Assembly: GCA_028284545.1 (NCBI GenBank)
Contig: JANQRN010000079.1
Coordinates: 1 to 36,353 of the forward strand
Origin: Rhodothermales bacterium
GTDB taxonomy: Bacteria; Bacteroidota; Rhodothermia; Rhodothermales; JABDKH01
DNA length: 36,353 nucleotides
Direction: 5' to 3'
Below are positions 16,467 to 31,430 of the stretch, in pieces; positions within the stretch are counted from its first letter, which is position 1; each line of letters starts with the position of its first letter. The position numbers and the translations under genes are program-made. The notes under the pieces are model-generated. The model was given only the letters and a program-made list of their open reading frames with translations. It made no database searches and was not told the origin of the DNA.

Positions 16467-18827
16467 TTGGGCATGGACGTGCTGTCTCGACCCGCAACCG
16501 CCGCCGCCGCGGCACTCGCATCTGGGATCGCCATTCGGGCGGTCGCCCAGCTTTCGTTCACATTCACAACGGCCATCCTCGGCGGGGCCGTCCTGGCGCT
16601 CGCGTTCGCACTACTGATGCGTTCGAATCAGCGGATTTCCAGCTTGGCCGCGGCAATCTGCCTGCTATTCGCTCTGGGTTTCATTCGGGCATCAGAGCGA
16701 TTTGAGGCTGCGGCAAAGCTGAGCGCCTACGCGGCCACCGCGACGTCGCTCCACGGCATCGCAAGAGACGTTTCTGTCAGCGATTTCGGAGCGCGGTTCC
16801 TGCTCGCATCTCCCCAGGGGAATATCCAGATTACCCTGCGTGGAAGGGCTGCCGCCGTGCATGGCAACGTGCTGCGCGATGGCATGAGGGCCACTTTCGT
16901 GGGACCAGTCGAGACCGTCGTTCGAAAGCGTAATCCAGGAGACTTCGACTATGAACGCTTTCTCTTTTCCAGGTCCGTCTGGGGGGCAGCAACACTCCGC
17001 GATCCCAACCGGTTGCGAGTGTTCGAAGCCGACCCCTCGCTGATCCGGCGAGGCATTGGGCGCGCACAACGGTACGTCGCTGATGTCGTTAGGCGACGCG
17101 CAGCAACAGAAGTTCACCCGGTTATCCACGCCCTGCTCCTGGGCGACAGAAGTTACCTGGACGACGAACTCCAACGCACGCTCTCGCGCACGGGGCTGAT
17201 GCACCTACTCGCAGTCTCAGGTCTGCACGTCGTGCTGGTGGGCCTGACCATTCATCGCATCTTATTCAGCATGCTTGTCCGGATGCGCATACCCTGGCGC
17301 GCGATGGAGGCTGTTCGCACCCCGACGACAGTACTACTGCTCGTCGCATACGCGGCTCTTACCGGTAACTCGCCATCCGTTGTGCGAGCCGTACTCATGG
17401 CCACCCTGATTATCTCAGGATCAGCTCTCAGGCGGCGTGCCGACACACTCAACTCGCTTGGCGTAGCTGCATTTCTCCTCCTGCTGGCACGACCTGAGCG
17501 ACTCTTTTCGGTAGGCTTTCAACTCAGCTTCTGCGCGGTAGGGGCGATCGTATCCCTTGGGCCCTCAATTGCACAGACACTCGCGCGCCGAGAACCCGCC
17601 GGCTTCTTTTCGCGCAGCCTCGCAACGTCCATCGCCGCAACCGCTGGGACAGCACCCGTTCTCCTGGTGACGTTTGGCTACGTCCCCCTTGCCGGCATAA
17701 TCCTGAACATTGCTGCAATCCCGCTTGCATCACTCACGCTGGCAGCAGGTTTCTTGATGGCTATCGTCGACGTTGCCGCACCGGACCTCGCTATACTTCT
17801 TCAGCTGACCGTATCACATTCCGCTGAGTTGCTCCTGTCAGTCGCCAAGTTCGCAGACACTTACCTGGACGCAACGGTGGTGACGTTCCCAACCAACACG
17901 AGTGCGCGCATACTGTTGGCTGCTTCCGTAACAATCATCACCGCACACTTGGCGCAACTCTCAGCTCGATGGAGACTCACCGTTTTCTGTATGCTGGCAA
18001 TCGTTACTTCGCTCCACCTACACTCTGCTCGCGCGGGCAACCAGCCGCTCGATATTGTCTTTCTCGACGTTGGGCAGGGAGATGCGGCCGTAATTCGGAC
18101 TCCCGATGCACACTTCATCGTCGTAGATACCGGTCCGCCTGGCCGAACGATGACCGCGGCAGAGCGCACGGTAATCCCTCAGCTCCGACTGATGCGCGCG
18201 AAGGCTATCGATTTGCTACTCGTGACGCACGCGCATGCCGATCACGATGGTGGCGTCAAAGACCTGGTCAGCGCCTTTGAAACAAAGAACTTTTTTTCAA
18301 GTGCCGAGGATCAGCGATACGCGCCGGCCAGCCACAGGCCACTGTTCGCCGGGCAGACACTGCGGGTGGGTAAACATGTTACGCTTTCAGTTTTAAATCC
18401 GTCGAGACAGCCGTCTGCGCTGAGCGGAGCGGTGAGGTCTGTCAATAACAATTCGATCGCGGTAAGGCTCGACTTCGGCAATTCCTGCGCACTACTCACG
18501 GGCGATATCGAGCAAGAAGCTGAAGCAGAAATCCTGTCTTCGTCGCAGAATCTCCAATGCGATATCGTGAAGGTCGCCCATCATGGATCTCGCACAAGCA
18601 GTTCCTGGGCCTTTTGGAAAGCCACGAACCACCCAGACACGAACAAAGACCAGGACTTCGCGATCATCAGCGTCGGCCGGAACAACCGCTTTGGCCTGCC
18701 AGATGAGGAGATTGTAGATAGATGGCGGCGTACACGAACGGTTTTCCAGACCATCGAGGGCGCCGTGTGGCTCAAGTCTGACGGTGAGCACATATACTTG
18801 CACGAATGGCGCAAGGACGCGAGATAG
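16467..18827 (+). CDS. comEC: ComEC/Rec2-family DNA internalization protein
   Basis: LLLGDRSYLDDELQRTLSRTGLMHLLAVSGLHVVLVG; metallo-beta-lactamase-like C-terminus LDVGQGDAAVI, HAHADHDGG, KVAHHGSRTSS. TTG at 16467 or ATG at 16473. Confidence 0.93.
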   Translation: MGMDVLSRPATAAAAALASGIAIRAVAQLSFTFTTAILGGAVLALAFALLMRSNQRISSLAAAICLLFALGFIRASERFEAAAKLSAYAATATSLHGIARDVSVSDFGARFLLASPQGNIQITLRGRAAAVHGNVLRDGMRATFVGPVETVVRKRNPGDFDYERFLFSRSVWGAATLRDPNRLRVFEADPSLIRRGIGRAQRYVADVVRRRAATEVHPVIHALLLGDRSYLDDELQRTLSRTGLMHLLAVSGLHVVLVGLTIHRILFSMLVRMRIPWRAMEAVRTPTTVLLLVAYAALTGNSPSVVRAVLMATLIISGSALRRRADTLNSLGVAAFLLLLARPERLFSVGFQLSFCAVGAIVSLGPSIAQTLARREPAGFFSRSLATSIAATAGTAPVLLVTFGYVPLAGIILNIAAIPLASLTLAAGFLMAIVDVAAPDLAILLQLTVSHSAELLLSVAKFADTYLDATVVTFPTNTSARILLAASVTIITAHLAQLSARWRLTVFCMLAIVTSLHLHSARAGNQPLDIVFLDVGQGDAAVIRTPDAHFIVVDTGPPGRTMTAAERTVIPQLRLMRAKAIDLLLVTHAHADHDGGVKDLVSAFETKNFFSSAEDQRYAPASHRPLFAGQTLRVGKHVTLSVLNPSRQPSALSGAVRSVNNNSIAVRLDFGNSCALLTGDIEQEAEAEILSSSQNLQCDIVKVAHHGSRTSSSWAFWKATNHPDTNKDQDFAIISVGRNNRFGLPDEEIVDRWRRTRTVFQTIEGAVWLKSDGEHIYLHEWRKDAR

Positions 18828-19990
18828 GACGGCCGGTTCGCCTCTGCTTTGTTGGAGACGGCGAGAACTACCACGTGAAGAAGTGGCTACCAGCATTGGC
18901 ACGTGCGGGTTTGCACGTGACCCTTATTTCGTTTGACGCACCTGCCAAAGCACTCGATGGAGTCGAAATACGGCTTCTCAAGAGACGATTCCCGCGCCGA
19001 TCGTATCTGAACTATGTGCAGCCCGCCTCGGAGCTGAATCAACTTCTTGCTCAAGAGCGGTGCGATGTGCTAATAGGATCCTACGCCACCCACTACGGCT
19101 GGCTGGCCGCACGCACGCGCTTCTCGCCGTTTGTCATGCAGACGTGGACCGGAGATCTCACGATCTACCCGGTAAGGTGGCCAAAGCGATTCGCCTTTTT
19201 GCCGGTCGTCCACTACGGACTCTCGCATGCCGATCTGATCACCACAGATGGTAGAGCCTTGCGAGATCTGGGTGCGAGGTATTTCCCTGAGTTTGCTCCA
19301 AAGATGATACCCATACGATGGGGAATAGAAGCCCCACTTGCGGACCCGCTCCCGCTTCGCGAAAGACAATCGTTGATGCGCCGCCTGCAGATAGACATTC
19401 CGGAGTCAAGCGTTGTGATCACGGCTCCTCGCGGACTGCAGCATTGGTATCAGCCCGAATCAGTAATCGAGGGTCTCCTGCACGCATTGGATAGCGCAGC
19501 TGATCTCTTCGTTGTCTTGCTCACCCTGGGGCATGACTACGGAGCCCCGCTGGATCAGCAATTGCGTACGCTGGGTGATCACCCTCGCGCGCATGTCATA
19601 GACCGTTTTCTAGATGGCGAGGAAATGACGGACGTCTGGAAAGCAACGGATATTGTTCTCTCTGTACCCCACGCGGATGGAGTATCAGAATCTGTCCTTG
19701 AAGCCGTCTATTGGGGAGCGTATCCAGTCCTATCTGACATCCCGAGCAACCAAAGCCTCATAGAGGATGGGATGAGAGCCACCTTAGTGCCGCCGGGATC
19801 GACGGAACTGCCGGTGGCAATTGGCGAGGCGATCAGCGCCCACGGACGTTATTCGACGGAGCGCGTTCGAGCGCTACGCGAAGAAAACTCGCAGTGGGTC
19901 ACGGAGAATGCGACTGTTGGTCAAACAGCGGCGCAGCTTGCCGAAATGGTTAGGGATCTGGTACGACAGCGTCCGCGCTCAGCGACTTAG
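18806..19990 (+). CDS. Glycosyltransferase (GT4-like)
   Basis: FVGDGENYHVKKWLPALARAGLHVTLISF; DIVLSVPHADGVSESVLEAVYWGAYPVLSDIPSNQSLIEDG. Confidence 0.85.
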   Translation: MAQGREIGRPVRLCFVGDGENYHVKKWLPALARAGLHVTLISFDAPAKALDGVEIRLLKRRFPRRSYLNYVQPASELNQLLAQERCDVLIGSYATHYGWLAARTRFSPFVMQTWTGDLTIYPVRWPKRFAFLPVVHYGLSHADLITTDGRALRDLGARYFPEFAPKMIPIRWGIEAPLADPLPLRERQSLMRRLQIDIPESSVVITAPRGLQHWYQPESVIEGLLHALDSAADLFVVLLTLGHDYGAPLDQQLRTLGDHPRAHVIDRFLDGEEMTDVWKATDIVLSVPHADGVSESVLEAVYWGAYPVLSDIPSNQSLIEDGMRATLVPPGSTELPVAIGEAISAHGRYSTERVRALREENSQWVTENATVGQTAAQLAEMVRDLVRQRPRSAT

Positions 19991-20826
19991 CTGTCAACGA
20001 ATAGCGGAATATTGCATTTAGACAGGAGGGTCGAGGTAGTGGACCCGAATGCAACCCGCTTGATGGATGAGACAGCATGGGCTCCAGCGACCAGGATATC
20101 ACCGCCAGTCTTCTCCAGGTACTTGAGGATTTCGTCGGCCGGTTTAGATCCTGAGAGACTGATAGCGTTGCAGGTGAACCCATGTGCCTCGACGAACTCA
20201 CGCAAAAGACGAAGCAGCAACTCGGCTTCCCCCTGATTCTTGTGGTGAACGTGCAGCAGGTCGAGTTGCACATCCTGACCAAAAGGCTTCAACTGCACAA
20301 ATCTTGAGACAGCCCGAGCGGCAGCATCGCTACCATCATAGGCAACCACCGCCCGTTTGACATCGAGATACTCGTAGTCAACGACAAGTGTAGGTGCGAC
20401 TGTCCGCTTAACCACACGGGCAACGGTGTTGGTGTCCTTCTTCGGTTGCGCATAGAAGAAGTGCGGATCTTTGCCCATGATCAAGAGATCGTGGACCTTC
20501 ATGTCTTCCACGATTCGCTGAAATGGCACACCTTCATGAATGAACTCGCCGTGGCGAACACCAGCATCCGACATGATGTCCTGGTACTCTGTCATCAGAT
20601 TGCGAGCGAGTTCTCGTGTCTCGTCAGTGAGTTGCTCCTGCAGTTTCTCAGCGTAGTAGAAGCTACCAATACCGCCACCACGGGTACTGGATTCAATCGA
20701 ATGCAGGTCGATAACCGCGAGACAATTCACAAGCGCATCGTGGCGACGGGCAATGCTGATCGCGTACTTCGCAGCGATACTCGTGTCTTCGTCCGAATCG
20801 ATGGCAAGGAGGATTCTCTTAATCAT
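19987..20826 (-). CDS. Universal stress protein, tandem UspA domains
   Basis: MIKRILLAIDSDEDTSIAAKYAISIARRHDA; second domain with KRAVVAYDGSDAAARAV; C-terminal GSTTSTLLSKCNIPLFV. Confidence 0.9.
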   Translation of the reverse strand: MIKRILLAIDSDEDTSIAAKYAISIARRHDALVNCLAVIDLHSIESSTRGGGIGSFYYAEKLQEQLTDETRELARNLMTEYQDIMSDAGVRHGEFIHEGVPFQRIVEDMKVHDLLIMGKDPHFFYAQPKKDTNTVARVVKRTVAPTLVVDYEYLDVKRAVVAYDGSDAAARAVSRFVQLKPFGQDVQLDLLHVHHKNQGEAELLLRLLREFVEAHGFTCNAISLSGSKPADEILKYLEKTGGDILVAGAHAVSSIKRVAFGSTTSTLLSKCNIPLFVDS

Positions 20827-20920
20827 GACGCAAGGATGGGTAAACGACCAGTCATCAAGCTACTTGACATCTGTACGGCGAACAAGACTGCGGAGAGTCT
20901 ACTGAGATGGACCCTCACCG

Positions 20921-21303
20921 CTATCCACAGACGCTTACTTCTTTTGTCTAATGAATGTCTATTTAGAGTTGTAGTAGTAGAGCGGGTGTATATGTGGATA
21001 ATCATGTTCTCCACAGTCGCCGCCACCACGAGTGGATAAGTGTGTGGTTTCTCTGGGCCAGGTTTTGCACGGATTGGTTCGGTATGGCGGCCATATAACC
21101 GCCAGCTCCTGGCAGCGTCAAGTTATCCACACCGCGCCCAATAACGGGCGATTTCGGCCCACAAACGACATGAGGTGGGTAACCGCCAGTAGGTGTTGGT
21201 GTGCTGTGGAGGGCACGCCAAGATGCCCACACGACTCATGGCCGTTGATAAGTCTTCACTGGGCGCGCACGCTCTTCCGTGGGTTATCAACGGGTTACAC
21301 ACA
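20921..21303. other. oriC: Candidate chromosomal replication origin (DnaA-box cluster with DnaA-trio)
   Basis: Perfect DnaA boxes at 20993-21001 (TGTGGATAA) and 21123-21131 (TTATCCACA). 8/9 boxes at 20921-20929 (CTATCCACA), 21007-21015 (TTCTCCACA), 21031-21039 (AGTGGATAA). 7/9 sites at 21243-21251, 21284-21292, 21295-21303. TAGTAGTAG at 20972-20980 beside an AT-rich tract. Confidence 0.72.
20972..21001. promoter_or_regulatory. DnaA-trio / GC spacer / DnaA box (BUS-like unwinding element)
   Basis: TAGTAGTAG-AGCGGGTGTATA-TGTGGATAA. Strand polarity matches the described BUS order. Confidence 0.6.
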
Positions 21304-21335
21304 TGTCCACGAGCCCCAGATTCATCAAATTCTGA

Positions 21336-22625
21336 TCATTCTGGTCGGCCGAGCAGGCGGAACATGGCCTTCTTGTAGGCCTCAACGCCAGGTTGGTCGA
21401 ATGGGTTGACGCCCAGGAGGTACCCGCTGACGGCCACTGCATGTTCGAAGAAGTAGATCAGCTCCCCGATCGCTGCCGGGGTCAACTGGTCGAGCCAGAT
21501 TGTCATATTTGGCAGACCGCCGTCCTCGTGGGCCTCTGACGTGCCCTCGTAGGCCCGCAGGTTGATCTCCGAGTAGGCCTTGCCGGCCAGGTAGTTGAGT
21601 CCGTCAAGATTGTCTGAGTCTTTTGCCACACGGATAGTCGACTTGTCCAGACGGACCATCAGAAAGGTCTCCAGGAGTTGTCGGCGACCGTCCTGCATGT
21701 ACTGCCCCAACGAGTGGAGGTCTGTCGAGTACTGGACGCCGACAGGAAAGATGCCCTTCTTGTCTTTCCCCTCGCTCTCTCCGTAAAGTTGCTGCCACCA
21801 GCCTGCAAAATCGGATAGCTTGGGCTCGAAGACGGCCAGTGCCTCGATCGTATATCCGCGCGCATACAATCGAGATCGCAACTCTGCGTACGCGAGTGCC
21901 GGATGGTATCCATCCGTCGAAACTGCTTCGAGATCAGTGCACATTGCGCGCGCGCCGTAGAAGAGACTGCGAATGTCAACCCCCGCAACGGCGATTGGCA
22001 ACAGCCCAACCGGCGTGAGTACCGAGAATCGTCCGCCGACGTCGGGTGGGATGACGTACTTCTTGTAGGGATGGTCGCTTCGGAGTGCGTTGAGCGCGCC
22101 CTTCTCTGGATCGGTGGTCACGATGACACGGTCATCCGCGTCCTCGAAGTTCCGCTCGAGCCAGTCCCGAAGAAACCGGAAAGCAAGGGCAGGCTCGAGT
22201 GTGGTGCCGCTCTTGGAGATGACGTTCACGAAAACGGATTTCCCTTCGAGATATGCCAGAAGCTCCTGCATATAGGCACCGCTCATATGGTGACCGGCAA
22301 ACAGAATCTCCGTTTTCTCGTCAGACTCTTCGAGGTAGGGTGTCAGGGCGCTAATTACCGCGCGGGCGCCGAGGTATGAGCCACCGATGCCAACGCATAC
22401 GAGCACGTCCGCATTCTGTCTGACGCGCGCAGCGGTTGACACGATGTCCTCGAGCAAGGCATCATTGGGGTCGAGGAGCAGGTCGCGCCATCCGAGAAAC
22501 GAGCTACCCGGACCAGAACCCGACTTGAGCTGCGCGTGCGCGCGCAGCACGGTCTCCCGATTCGGTTCGCCTGGCGCCGACTCGCCTAGAAAGCTATTGA
22601 TGCGGTCAGTGTCTAGCGTAATCAT
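21336..22625 (-). CDS. pgi: Glucose-6-phosphate isomerase
   Basis: VCVGIGGSYLGARAVI, VNVISKSGTTLEPALAFRFLRDWLE, GGRFSVLTPVGLLPIAVAG. Confidence 0.95.
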   Translation of the reverse strand: MITLDTDRINSFLGESAPGEPNRETVLRAHAQLKSGSGPGSSFLGWRDLLLDPNDALLEDIVSTAARVRQNADVLVCVGIGGSYLGARAVISALTPYLEESDEKTEILFAGHHMSGAYMQELLAYLEGKSVFVNVISKSGTTLEPALAFRFLRDWLERNFEDADDRVIVTTDPEKGALNALRSDHPYKKYVIPPDVGGRFSVLTPVGLLPIAVAGVDIRSLFYGARAMCTDLEAVSTDGYHPALAYAELRSRLYARGYTIEALAVFEPKLSDFAGWWQQLYGESEGKDKKGIFPVGVQYSTDLHSLGQYMQDGRRQLLETFLMVRLDKSTIRVAKDSDNLDGLNYLAGKAYSEINLRAYEGTSEAHEDGGLPNMTIWLDQLTPAAIGELIYFFEHAVAVSGYLLGVNPFDQPGVEAYKKAMFRLLGRPE

Positions 22626-26723: not shown

Positions 26724-27326
26724 ATGCGGGACGACGGACGTTACGACGACACCCCCCGAGACGACGATCAGCGGGGGGGCCGATTCAGGGCGGAGTACGA
26801 GGCCCTCGTACCCAGGTTGATGGGATACATCCTGACCGCAACGGGGGAGCGCGAGACTGCGCTTGACCTGCTACAGGAAACCATGATCCGGTTCTGGAGG
26901 TCACCGTTCTATTCCTCAGAACAGCACCACTCTGCTGAAGATTCACGGCGCTATGCTTTCCGGATCGCGGCCAACCTCCTCAAAGATCATCGCAGGAGCC
27001 GTGCACGATACGCCGAAATCATCGCGCGATTCGAAGAGGAACATCGTGCTCGCCGCAGTCCGGAGGTTGACCCCGACCTTCCCATCGACTTGCAACGCGG
27101 CCTGCAGAGACTCAAGCCGCGGGAGAGGGAATTGCTCTGGTTAGCCCACGGGCTCAACTACACGCACACGGAAATCGCCGATTTGTTGGGATACCGCCCG
27201 CTCAGCGTACGGGTCCTGTTAAGCAGGGCCAGGAATCGATTGCGCCATGTAATGGTCGGGTTGGACGGCGCAACACCTTCAGATCACCCGCCCCCGCCCT
27301 CGGATCCCCTTCTGCCCGCGGACTGA
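26724..27326 (+). CDS. ECF-type RNA polymerase sigma factor
   Basis: Region 2 GERETALDLLQETMIRFWRSPF...YAFRIAANLLKDHRRSR; region 4 LQRLKPRERELLWLAHGLNYTHTEIADLLGYRPLSVRVLLSRARNRLR. Confidence 0.88.
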   Translation: MRDDGRYDDTPRDDDQRGGRFRAEYEALVPRLMGYILTATGERETALDLLQETMIRFWRSPFYSSEQHHSAEDSRRYAFRIAANLLKDHRRSRARYAEIIARFEEEHRARRSPEVDPDLPIDLQRGLQRLKPRERELLWLAHGLNYTHTEIADLLGYRPLSVRVLLSRARNRLRHVMVGLDGATPSDHPPPPSDPLLPAD

Positions 27327-28717
27327 GCGCCCAGGAGCAGCGGTGCGCTTAGCGCGGCCTCCAAATCCGCATCTATAGCATCTCGATAAGAAGCGAACTC
27401 CTTGGGCACCCGAAAATCCAGTGGAAGGAACGCGGCGTCCCCCAAATCAGGGTCCCGCTCGACAAACTGCGTCGATACCGTCATCCAGATCTTTGTCTTG
27501 GGGAGATCGATGTCCCTTCCCTCGCTGGGGCTGTTGGGTTTCCCGCGAGGGGGTTCGCCAACAAGGCGGGCGTTTGCTGACCGGCGCAACTCTGCGGCGT
27601 TGGTCAAGGCTGCCGAATAGGTGCGTCGACCCACGAGGACAAACAGGCGCCCTTGTGATGTGAAATCGGTTCGTGCCGCAAGTCCGTCGATCAGGGCGCG
27701 GGCGGTCAGCGGCTCGCCGCCGGTGTTCTGGCGCAAGTCAATGATCAGGCGTTCCACCGGATTCTGGTCCATGAACGCGAAGATTTCCTCAGCCATTCCC
27801 GCCACGGTGGGCCGATCCTTCTGGTCCCAGCAAGTGTTGTACTGGAAAAAGACGGTCTCGTCCTCTTCCAGATACTCCCACCAATAGTACTTCCTTTCGC
27901 TGAGGTGGGGGAGCGTAAGCGGCGTCGCAAACAGGTATTCCAGTCGGCGACTGACGGGCCGTCTGTCCGGATACACTGAGTTTGCCGTGAGCCAGCTGCC
28001 CTTCCGGTACGCCTTAAGGTTCTCGGAACGAAACGTTTCGGTGATACCCCCCTCGAATTCGAACCGGACACTATCCGCTGAGGGTGCCACGCCGAGCACG
28101 TGCAGCAATTCGGGCCGGAGAATGTGGAACGAAGACGTGTAGGCATATTCCATGTCATTGTCGGCGGAGATGGTCGAACTGATTACGCGCAACACTTCAC
28201 CAACTTCCATTCCCTCAATGCGCAGAAGCTCCTTTCCTATGAGGTGTTCATGCGTCGTTCGGGCGGCCGTCACGAACATCCCGTCATCAAACAACCAGAG
28301 GTGCAGCGGAATGAACCTGAACATCATCCCCCGCTGTTCACCCGGGTACATTGACGTGTGCCCGTCACCCACCATCGCAATCACCTCAGAAAGCCTGACC
28401 AGTGCCTGGTTGACGCTCAATGTGGGAAGGTCATCGTGTAGCGCGGCTACCGCGTTCTCGAACGTGTCTTGCGGAATCTCGTGGTAGAGATCCACGTGTC
28501 GTTCGAGCAATGCCGTGTGCATGGTCTGCAGGTCTTCCTGCCATTTCTTCGCCTTCCCGGGACTCATCACCTGTGCGTTGTTCGAGCACCCCGAAAACAA
28601 GGAAGACGCGGTCAGCAGCGCGACCAATCCGATTCCTACACAGCGCCGGGCAGTTACACTGGTTGTGTGAGCGGTGGGCTCTGGTCGCTGGACACGGGAA
28701 GCTAATTGGGTAGGCAT
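27284..28717 (-). CDS. S41-family peptidase-like lipoprotein
   Basis: ERLIIDLRQNTGGEPLTARALIDGL, LFVLVGRRTYSAALTNAAELRRSANARLVGEPPRGKPN; lipobox LFSGC. Confidence 0.8.
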   Translation of the reverse strand: MPTQLASRVQRPEPTAHTTSVTARRCVGIGLVALLTASSLFSGCSNNAQVMSPGKAKKWQEDLQTMHTALLERHVDLYHEIPQDTFENAVAALHDDLPTLSVNQALVRLSEVIAMVGDGHTSMYPGEQRGMMFRFIPLHLWLFDDGMFVTAARTTHEHLIGKELLRIEGMEVGEVLRVISSTISADNDMEYAYTSSFHILRPELLHVLGVAPSADSVRFEFEGGITETFRSENLKAYRKGSWLTANSVYPDRRPVSRRLEYLFATPLTLPHLSERKYYWWEYLEEDETVFFQYNTCWDQKDRPTVAGMAEEIFAFMDQNPVERLIIDLRQNTGGEPLTARALIDGLAARTDFTSQGRLFVLVGRRTYSAALTNAAELRRSANARLVGEPPRGKPNSPSEGRDIDLPKTKIWMTVSTQFVERDPDLGDAAFLPLDFRVPKEFASYRDAIDADLEAALSAPLLLGAQSAGRRGSEGGGG

Positions 28718-28802
28718 TGTTCAGGAAGGTGTTGGTGTCGAATGCGTGGTCATTCCACACCATACCAACCGTGCCTGGTCGGCCCTGGTTAACACACGGC
28801 CG

Positions 28803-31340
28803 TCAGTCCGTCCCAACTGCGAAGACGGCATTTCCGAAAAGCACCTCACCGGTGTACCACATCCCACGGAAAAGCAGGTCGTCCATCGCGTAGACAACGG
28901 TTCCGCGACCGACATCCTGCACGCCGAGGGCCAGCGAGCCGGCGATCCGTTTCCGGGTATTGTGCCCGGCAAAGCCGCTGATGGGTTCGCCGTCCTCGAC
29001 GACGGCAACGTTCCATCCCTGCTTCAGCAACTTCGCGGTGCTGCTGCTACGGCGCAGAACCGGCAGGCGGTCGCCAAGCCCGTAGGCGAGCGGGTGGGTT
29101 CGGTCAGCTGTGGCTAGGAAGATGGCCCCGGGGATTCCATCTGAAATGCGGCGTCGCACACGATCTGCGTATGGTTGTTCGACCGGGCCGACCGCTGCTG
29201 AGTCGGGCTCGGCGCCCCGATTCATCTCGAGCGCAAAGCCTGACTTGCCGGCGAAGAATCGTGCCGCGCCATCCAATGCAATGAGCTTTCCCCCTCCACG
29301 AATCCACGCGCGCAGGTCGCCCATAGCGTCCTCGTCAAGAACACTTCCGTAGGACCCGCTCGGCATGACAAGCACGTCGTACTGTCCCAGGTCGGTGCCG
29401 CCAAGGCGGTTGCCGTTGACGATCGTGACAGGGTAGGCAGCGCGTTCGTCGAAATAGTGCCAGATCTGCCCGAGGGAATAGGACGACACCGTCGAGCCAC
29501 CTACGACAGCCACTCGAGGAGCCTTGAGGTAGCCGACATCTCCAGATCCGAAATCCGGCCCACTGTCGACGAAGCCCGTTGAGGCCGGGAATAGTTCTCG
29601 ACCAAATTTAGCCGCAATAGACTGAACCTGCTCGTCGAAGCGCGCGCCGATTCGCGTATTGCCGGTTCGGGTGATAATGAGCGTGCCCCGCTCAAAAGTC
29701 TGGCCGGCAAGAGAGATCGGTTCGTGTGCCATTCGCACGAGGATTCCCGCCTTATGCAGTGCGGCCAGGAATCGGTGGTCCTCCAGGGAGCCGAATCGTG
29801 CCAGGTAGGCATAAGGTCTGATGCCGGCGGCTACAGCCGGGACTGTTGGCGTGCTGACATCGGTCAATTCCAGGCGCCGTGCGTCAGATGCAACTACGGC
29901 ATCGAGGCCGTAGAGCAAGGGAAGAGACCAGGTCGTGATGTCGTAGGTGACCGAGTCTGCAAGCAGCGGGTCGGGTTCCAGCAGGACGTCCGCAAGCACA
30001 CCCTTGGGCTGACTGGTTGAAACGACAATATCGCCTGGATCAACCGAGTGCCGACCGCTTCGCCCGTCTAGATAATTGCGCCCCGATACGGTCGTCGAAG
30101 TCGCGACGGTCTGGTACTCGATCCCTTGTATGTCCAGGAGGTGCATCAGCGCCGCCGCGCGCTCTCCGCGCGCGTCCCGCTTGATGACGAATGTGCGGGG
30201 TTCGCTGTCTGGTTCAAAGTATGCGGCAAACTCGGCTACTACGCGACCCGCGTTCTGTGCCGTGACTTCGATTGTAGATAATCCGGTGGTGTGATGGTGT
30301 GCGATGCGATCCGCCAGAGTCAGCGTGTCACTCTCCGCGGTCTTGATGGCAAGGCCAGCTCTCCCAGATCCCGCTTGCTCATACGTCATTCCGATGGACC
30401 CATTGAAAGTCGGCCACGTGTCACCGTATCCGGGGTACAACAAGTCGAAGCTCTGCCTGGTGAAGTAGAGCCACCCGTTCTCATCGAAGTATCTGGCGTG
30501 GTTGCGGCCAATCTGAGTCTGAAAGTCTCGTTGCCATTCGGTGACGGAAGCGTGGTAGGGTTCAGCAGCTGGTGCGAAATAGTAGGGGTTATTGACTCCC
30601 TGCTCGTGGAAGTCGACATGGACGTGTGGCATCCAGGCGTTGTACCTCTTGAGACGTGCGCGTGTCTCCTTCTGTGAGGCCCAGGCCCAGTCCCGATTCA
30701 GGTCAAAGTAGTAGTGGTTGGAGCGCCCACCGGGCCACGGTTCGTTGTGCGTCCGGTCATCGCTGTTGGGATTGACAAAGGCACCCGCCGTTCGATTGTA
30801 CCACTGTACGTAGCGCTCGCGACCATCGGGGTTGAGACACGGGTCAATGATGACAAGGGTATTCTCGAGCCACTCCTGGGTTCGCGCGTTGCCAGTGTCC
30901 GCCAGTTCGAAAAGCGTCAGCAAGGATGCCTCTGTCCCGACAGATTCGTTGCCGTGAACGTTGTAGCTGAGCCACACGATCGCGGTCGGACTGGCTGTCG
31001 GCGTGGCCGACCCCTTCGTCAATTCGATATTCTCCGCACGGATGTCGTCAAGCCGCGAGAGGTTGTCGGGCGTCGACACAAACAACAGGGTCAGCGGCCT
31101 GTGTTCATACGTCTGTCCGTAGGTCTCGATCGTGACGTTAGGGGAGGCTTGGGCCACGTGACTTACGTAGTCAACTACTCGATGATGCGGTGTGAAGCGG
31201 TCGCCCAGCTCGTAGCCGAGGAATTCTGCGGGCGACTGGATCTGCGCGTGTGCCTGCCGGGCGCTTGATGTACCGAGGAGGGTCAAGGTTACCAGCGCGG
31301 CAATCGCTACGCGCGACAACAGGTTGTTTGGTTGGGTCAT
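28803..31340 (-). CDS. M14-family zinc carboxypeptidase with C-terminal GATase1-like domain
   Basis: LSYNVHGNESVGTEA, DPCLNPDGRERYVQWYN, VDFHEQG; C-terminal YDVLVMPSGSYG..LRAWIRGGGKLIALDGAARF. Confidence 0.9.
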   Translation of the reverse strand: MTQPNNLLSRVAIAALVTLTLLGTSSARQAHAQIQSPAEFLGYELGDRFTPHHRVVDYVSHVAQASPNVTIETYGQTYEHRPLTLLFVSTPDNLSRLDDIRAENIELTKGSATPTASPTAIVWLSYNVHGNESVGTEASLLTLFELADTGNARTQEWLENTLVIIDPCLNPDGRERYVQWYNRTAGAFVNPNSDDRTHNEPWPGGRSNHYYFDLNRDWAWASQKETRARLKRYNAWMPHVHVDFHEQGVNNPYYFAPAAEPYHASVTEWQRDFQTQIGRNHARYFDENGWLYFTRQSFDLLYPGYGDTWPTFNGSIGMTYEQAGSGRAGLAIKTAESDTLTLADRIAHHHTTGLSTIEVTAQNAGRVVAEFAAYFEPDSEPRTFVIKRDARGERAAALMHLLDIQGIEYQTVATSTTVSGRNYLDGRSGRHSVDPGDIVVSTSQPKGVLADVLLEPDPLLADSVTYDITTWSLPLLYGLDAVVASDARRLELTDVSTPTVPAVAAGIRPYAYLARFGSLEDHRFLAALHKAGILVRMAHEPISLAGQTFERGTLIITRTGNTRIGARFDEQVQSIAAKFGRELFPASTGFVDSGPDFGSGDVGYLKAPRVAVVGGSTVSSYSLGQIWHYFDERAAYPVTIVNGNRLGGTDLGQYDVLVMPSGSYGSVLDEDAMGDLRAWIRGGGKLIALDGAARFFAGKSGFALEMNRGAEPDSAAVGPVEQPYADRVRRRISDGIPGAIFLATADRTHPLAYGLGDRLPVLRRSSSTAKLLKQGWNVAVVEDGEPISGFAGHNTRKRIAGSLALGVQDVGRGTVVYAMDDLLFRGMWYTGEVLFGNAVFAVGTD

Positions 31341-31430
31341 TTCCTGAGATGTGCACATGTTGGGCCCCAAAGTACGAGATCATGGTCTTGGGCGCCGTCA
31401 CAAGTCGGTTTAGCGGAGTATCCTTGGAAG

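Follow-up and report, generated by a model that had tools for sequence, protein, structure and literature searches.

A candidate DnaA-dependent chromosomal origin with a Bacillus-type unwinding layout at the usp-pgi junction of Rhodothermales

Does the non-coding gap between the genes for a universal stress protein (usp) and glucose-6-phosphate isomerase (pgi) in a Rhodothermales genome serve as the chromosomal origin of replication (oriC), as a first-pass annotation had proposed, in a stretch of DNA that holds no dnaA? The stretch analysed, referred to here as the window, comprises 36,353 bp and is contig C196 of the draft genome G000 (3.85 Mb in 326 contigs, estimated 81% complete); the closest named relative of its pgi lies on the Rhodothermales chromosome OX638293.1 (Bacteroidota). 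The gap measures 509 bp (20827-21335) and is bordered on the left by usp (19987-20826, minus strand), the 5' end of which points towards it, and on the right by pgi (21336-22625, minus strand; NF010697, E 6e-158), which turns its 3' end to the gap. Profile searches confirmed the usp, pgi and moeA gene calls, ARAGORN recovered the tRNA-Pro, tRNA-Arg and tRNA-Cys genes placed left of the gap, and the reported absence of dnaA from the window was correct. Within 20827-21335 neither the list of open reading frames nor the profile search gave any family-supported gene, and no Rfam match pointed to an RNA gene in the gap region.

Two perfect DnaA boxes (TTATCCACA) are located in the gap, at 20993-21001 on the minus strand and at 21123-21131 on the plus strand, along with three boxes that match at eight of nine positions: CTATCCACA (20921-20929, plus), TTCTCCACA (21007-21015, plus) and TTATCCACT (21031-21039, minus). 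A box scan of the window found all five at the positions annotated earlier, and likewise the three 7/9 sites within 21243-21303 (21243-21251, minus; 21284-21292, plus; 21295-21303, plus), which are individually weak and possibly represent low-affinity DnaA sites; a fourth 7/9 site, absent from the earlier list, lies at 21174-21182 (minus). The clustering is far beyond chance, given that 1000 dinucleotide-preserving shuffles of the gap contained a mean of 0.13 and a maximum of 3 boxes with at most one mismatch, and none reached the five observed. Over the whole window there are ten such boxes against 3.7 expected, the five outside the gap being scattered, and two of the seven perfect boxes in the entire 3.85-Mb draft are inside the gap. 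The gap therefore holds a DnaA-box cluster in non-coding DNA, as is characteristic of an oriC.

The first-pass annotation overlooked what is the most telling part of the gap, an unwinding module anchored on the perfect box at 20993-21001. Read from 21001, the minus strand is TTATCCACA-TATACACCCGCT-CTACTACTACAA-CTCTAAATAGACATTCATTAGACAAAAG, that is, the box, a 12-bp spacer (TATACACCCGCT, 20981-20992, minus), and a DnaA-trio array CTA CTA CTA CAA (20969-20980, minus), which forms 3'-GAT-5' repeats on the plus strand and includes three perfect trios (CTACTACTA, 20972-20980, minus). The spacer occupies the place of a second DnaA box, recognisable in many relatives as TTTCCACA or TATCCACA and degenerate (TATACACCC) in the species of the window. 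No 50-mers in the window are richer in AT than those starting at 20931-20935, which overlap the trios, run past them and define a candidate DNA unwinding element of 68% AT at 20931-20984, beside the boxes, where an oriC is expected to have one. Under the published search rule for basal unwinding systems (PMC8287927), a box must be followed, after no more than 16 bp, by three or more trios that conform to NAN in the 3'-to-5' reading, and the spacer lengths peak at 10-13 bp; the gap offers a perfect box, a 12-bp spacer and three 3'-GAT-5' trios. Judged from its sequence, the minus strand of the gap carries a Bacillus-type basal unwinding layout. The pattern TTATCCACA-N10-14-CTACTACTA occurs only once in G000, inside 20827-21335, and across the class it was detected in 9 of 252 genomes, with no match to a reversed control pattern.

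Conservation of the boxes among relatives, which the first-pass annotation had named as a check on its proposal, was borne out: pgi was followed on its 3' side, within 600 bp, by at least four boxes in 20 of 29 genomes from seven families, that of the window included. As a background for this test, only 12 of 6660 tiles reached at least four boxes, and 9 of these 12 were the pgi cluster itself. The module was also confined to the pgi cluster in four of five relatives from which 2 Mb were searched, the fifth (G048) having a variant array, and an AT-rich peak is present at the corresponding place in most relatives. The usual gene order is pgi-oriC-usp-comEC, with an usp orthologue adjoining the box cluster in most families of the order; further families likewise have usp next to the module. 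Family f9 has the module adjoining usp while pgi sits elsewhere. No box cluster was detected 3' of pgi in families f3 and f10, which counts against an origin at this place, or in Pgi relatives outside the order (Balneolales and similar, L011-L028). The position at the pgi junction is kept among relatives, as would be expected of an oriC.

In the sister order, the pgi genes of which have no such cluster, the same box-trio module adjoins purM (L289-L294; G115, G116, G119, G121, G141 and G160), a gene named by eye in these loci. No dnaA was present in the 3 kb fetched around the sister-order modules (L289-L294), and the purM module apparently represents a further origin away from dnaA, located at a junction other than that of pgi.

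The position of usp raises a different explanation for the boxes. The minus-strand usp has its start codon at 20826, facing the gap, which must therefore contain the usp promoter; some promoters are regulated by DnaA, and the boxes might belong to a DnaA-responsive usp promoter region. However, families f7, f13 and f14 keep both the cluster and the module 3' of pgi, together with comEC, and have no usp alongside, which largely refutes this explanation, and a promoter would leave unexplained both the module of trios and AT-rich DNA and the GC-skew minima found at the cluster. We consider it extremely improbable.

The evidence from skew comes from the chromosomes of relatives and from the window, the window's own genome being a draft in 326 contigs. 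In G028, the cumulative GC skew computed over 400 kb has its minimum at 586,407 and the keto skew at 586,320; the boxes lie at 586,032-586,366 and dnaA at 416 kb, and the coarse chromosome-wide skew maximum lies at about 1.9-2.0 Mb, opposite the cluster. The GC-skew minimum of G037 (237,346) is 0.8 kb from its cluster (236,291-236,556; dnaA at 400 kb), and that of G048 (2,539,911) is 4.7 kb from its cluster (2,544,646-2,545,039; dnaA at 2,391 kb). The expectation of a GC-skew minimum near the site thus held in these three chromosome-scale relatives, in which the minimum lies 0.04-5 kb from the cluster and is separated from dnaA by 148-170 kb, but not in G011 and G015, where it is displaced from the pgi cluster by 120 kb and 100 kb, respectively. 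Inversions could account for both offsets. Two DnaA boxes (G011:C1:1033364-1033514 and 1034510) are present at the displaced G011 minimum, an arrangement that may reflect an inversion or a separate site. In the window, the minimum of the keto skew is at 20,932 and that of the GC skew at 18,700, in agreement with a switch near the gap, and a permutation test of the skew switch gave p = 1.5e-4, a value that is optimistic because neighbouring blocks are correlated.

A box cluster lying apart from dnaA is also the expected look of a DnaA titration or reactivation site (datA- or DARS-like) close to the true origin, and the displaced skew minima of G011 and G015 would fit such a site. It would be expected neither to carry trios and an AT-rich unwinding element nor to sit on the skew minimum, as the cluster does in three relatives. 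The datA and DARS loci are recognised as boxes without an unwinding element and off the skew switch, a description from which the gap departs. Moreover, a better DnaA-box cluster elsewhere, the existence of which the first-pass annotation had treated as a point against its proposal, was not found in the surrounding 400 kb of G028, G011, G037 and G048. It is most improbable that the gap is a titration or reactivation site.

Gene orientation was of little help. The first-pass annotation had argued that genes on the two sides are oriented as leading-strand genes around an origin, and this is true of the genes that it named, whereas comEC (16467-18827) and a glycosyltransferase gene (18806-19990), which read rightward on the left of the gap, and pgi and the long open reading frames at 27284-31370, which read leftward on its right, run the opposite way. 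Because large open reading frames read both ways on either side, the argument is weak and was rejected as strong evidence for an origin.

It remained to be asked whether the true origin lies at dnaA, the gap being a second or relict origin. G000 encodes two full-length DnaA proteins that are 53% identical (contigs C23, L001 and L126; C205, L002 and L136), both with the ATPase and DNA-binding domains and the DNA-binding signature GGRDHSTVIHA, and two matches to the DnaA C-terminal domain were likewise found in G028, G037, G048, G017, G027 and G058. An origin at dnaA is favoured by the order dnaA-dnaN on C23, by the dnaA promoters of relatives, which hold 2-4 boxes and in G015 form a four-box cluster, and by the parS sites of G015, which are nearer to dnaA (28-41 kb) than to the pgi cluster (98-110 kb). 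No box cluster was detected at the C23 dnaA in the part present, but the contig keeps only 163 bp upstream of the dnaA frame and a cluster may lie beyond it. Against an origin at dnaA stand the distance of 148-170 kb between dnaA and the skew minimum in G028, G037 and G048, the absence of the trio module near dnaA in the stretches scanned from five relatives, and the parS sites of G011, whose distance is 34-39 kb to the cluster as against about 265 kb to dnaA, so that they favour the pgi locus over dnaA. No parS-like site is present in the window, but in all seven relatives examined (genomes of 2.7-4.8 Mb) parS sites lie 34-110 kb from the pgi locus, the distance being 46-105 kb in the five other than G011 and G015, with the G006 and G020 contigs taken as circular. 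We regard an origin at dnaA as highly unlikely.

The contigs G006:C1 and G020:C1, from relatives assembled in one or two contigs, start at dnaA (at 1.2 kb in G006) and carry the conserved origin cluster about 30 kb further on, about 31-33 kb from the contig start, which suggests that numbering in these records begins at dnaA instead of the origin.

The proposal that the gap is a candidate chromosomal oriC is thus supported by several independent lines, namely the boxes, the module, their conservation, the skew minima of three relatives and parS, and 20827-21335 is, with high probability, a DnaA-dependent chromosomal oriC. This call is stronger than that of the first-pass annotation, whose own criteria for refutation turned out mostly in favour of an origin. 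By analogy with the mechanism described for Bacillus (PMC10721633, PMC6669920), we infer that DnaA binding, opening and helicase loading take place at the gap. DnaA made from a gene elsewhere would fill the box cluster, and the platform would be DnaA on the perfect box at 20993-21001 and probably also on the degenerate second box alongside. A DnaA-ATP filament would then grow leftward from this platform onto the plus-strand trios at 20972-20980, the AT-rich DNA at 20931-20984, on the usp side, would open, and the helicase would be loaded at the opened stretch, from which two forks would depart in opposite directions.

While the origin junction is constant, the trio array varies within the order. 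In genera g17 and g39 the array behind the box reads CAACAACAACAA instead of CTACTACTA at the matching position, that is, 3'-GTT-5' as against the 3'-GAT-5' of the window and of many families. In g17 this variant was located at the pgi origin of G048 (G048:C4:2544701-2544722) and G054 (G054:C21:10457-10478) and was also found in G036, G084, G085, G087, G089 and G091, and in g39 it was found in G074. In one genus the array reads CAACAACAA, the central adenine being gone. In CAACAACAACAA the base that matches the central adenine of the trio is therefore thymine. The residue that we take to correspond to Asn187, as matched by eye against the B. subtilis sequence, is threonine both in the DnaA of g17 and in DnaA1 of the window's genome, and so it does not explain the change of array. 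A working GTT array would imply a DnaA that reads thymine in place of the central adenine, a tentative proposal that we consider rather unlikely. In B. subtilis, replacing the central adenine of trios 1-3 with thymine or guanine gives less initiation than replacing it with cytosine (PMC10721633). If the proposal were true, it would represent a naturally altered specificity of origin opening, as against the adenine on which B. subtilis depends. The natural variation of the module inside a single order provides a means of testing how DnaA recognises single-stranded DNA.

These results provide a precise and testable oriC for an order with environmental lineages known mainly from draft genomes. 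The motif box-N12-CTACTACTA beside pgi, usp or comEC could be used for finding origins and for coverage-based estimates of growth. The Bacillus-type unwinding module has been described as broadly conserved (PMC8287927), and the gap, a clear example distant from dnaA, strengthens the view that it is widespread.

The type of element is well known, and dnaA-distant origins have already been reported for Bacteroidetes, in which an oriC far from dnaA is considered common (DoriC, Ori-Finder; Prevotella intermedia, PMC4755523), whereas a partial literature search, with DoriC outside it, found no description of a pgi/usp origin in Rhodothermales, Salinibacter or Rhodothermus. Like those Bacteroidetes origins (PMC4755523), the gap was predicted away from dnaA on the basis of boxes and skew, and unlike them it lies at a gene junction kept in Rhodothermales and has an identified unwinding module. 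Another origin predicted from DnaA boxes within the wider Bacteroidetes/Chlorobi group, that of Melioribacter roseus, was placed between dnaA and dnaN (PMC3534657), whereas in G000 dnaA and dnaN are on a different contig, the available part of which shows no cluster. The closest resemblance in layout is to the basal unwinding system of B. subtilis, which consists of DnaA-boxes 6 and 7, a GC-rich spacer, DnaA-trios and an AT-rich unwinding element (PMC6669920, PMC8287927, PMC10721633). The gap has its parts in the same order and the same box consensus; its spacer falls inside the published length peak, and its three 3'-GAT-5' trios are likewise followed by AT-rich DNA. It differs from the B. 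subtilis system in lying between usp and pgi instead of at dnaA, in its degenerate second box and in the higher GC content of its genome.
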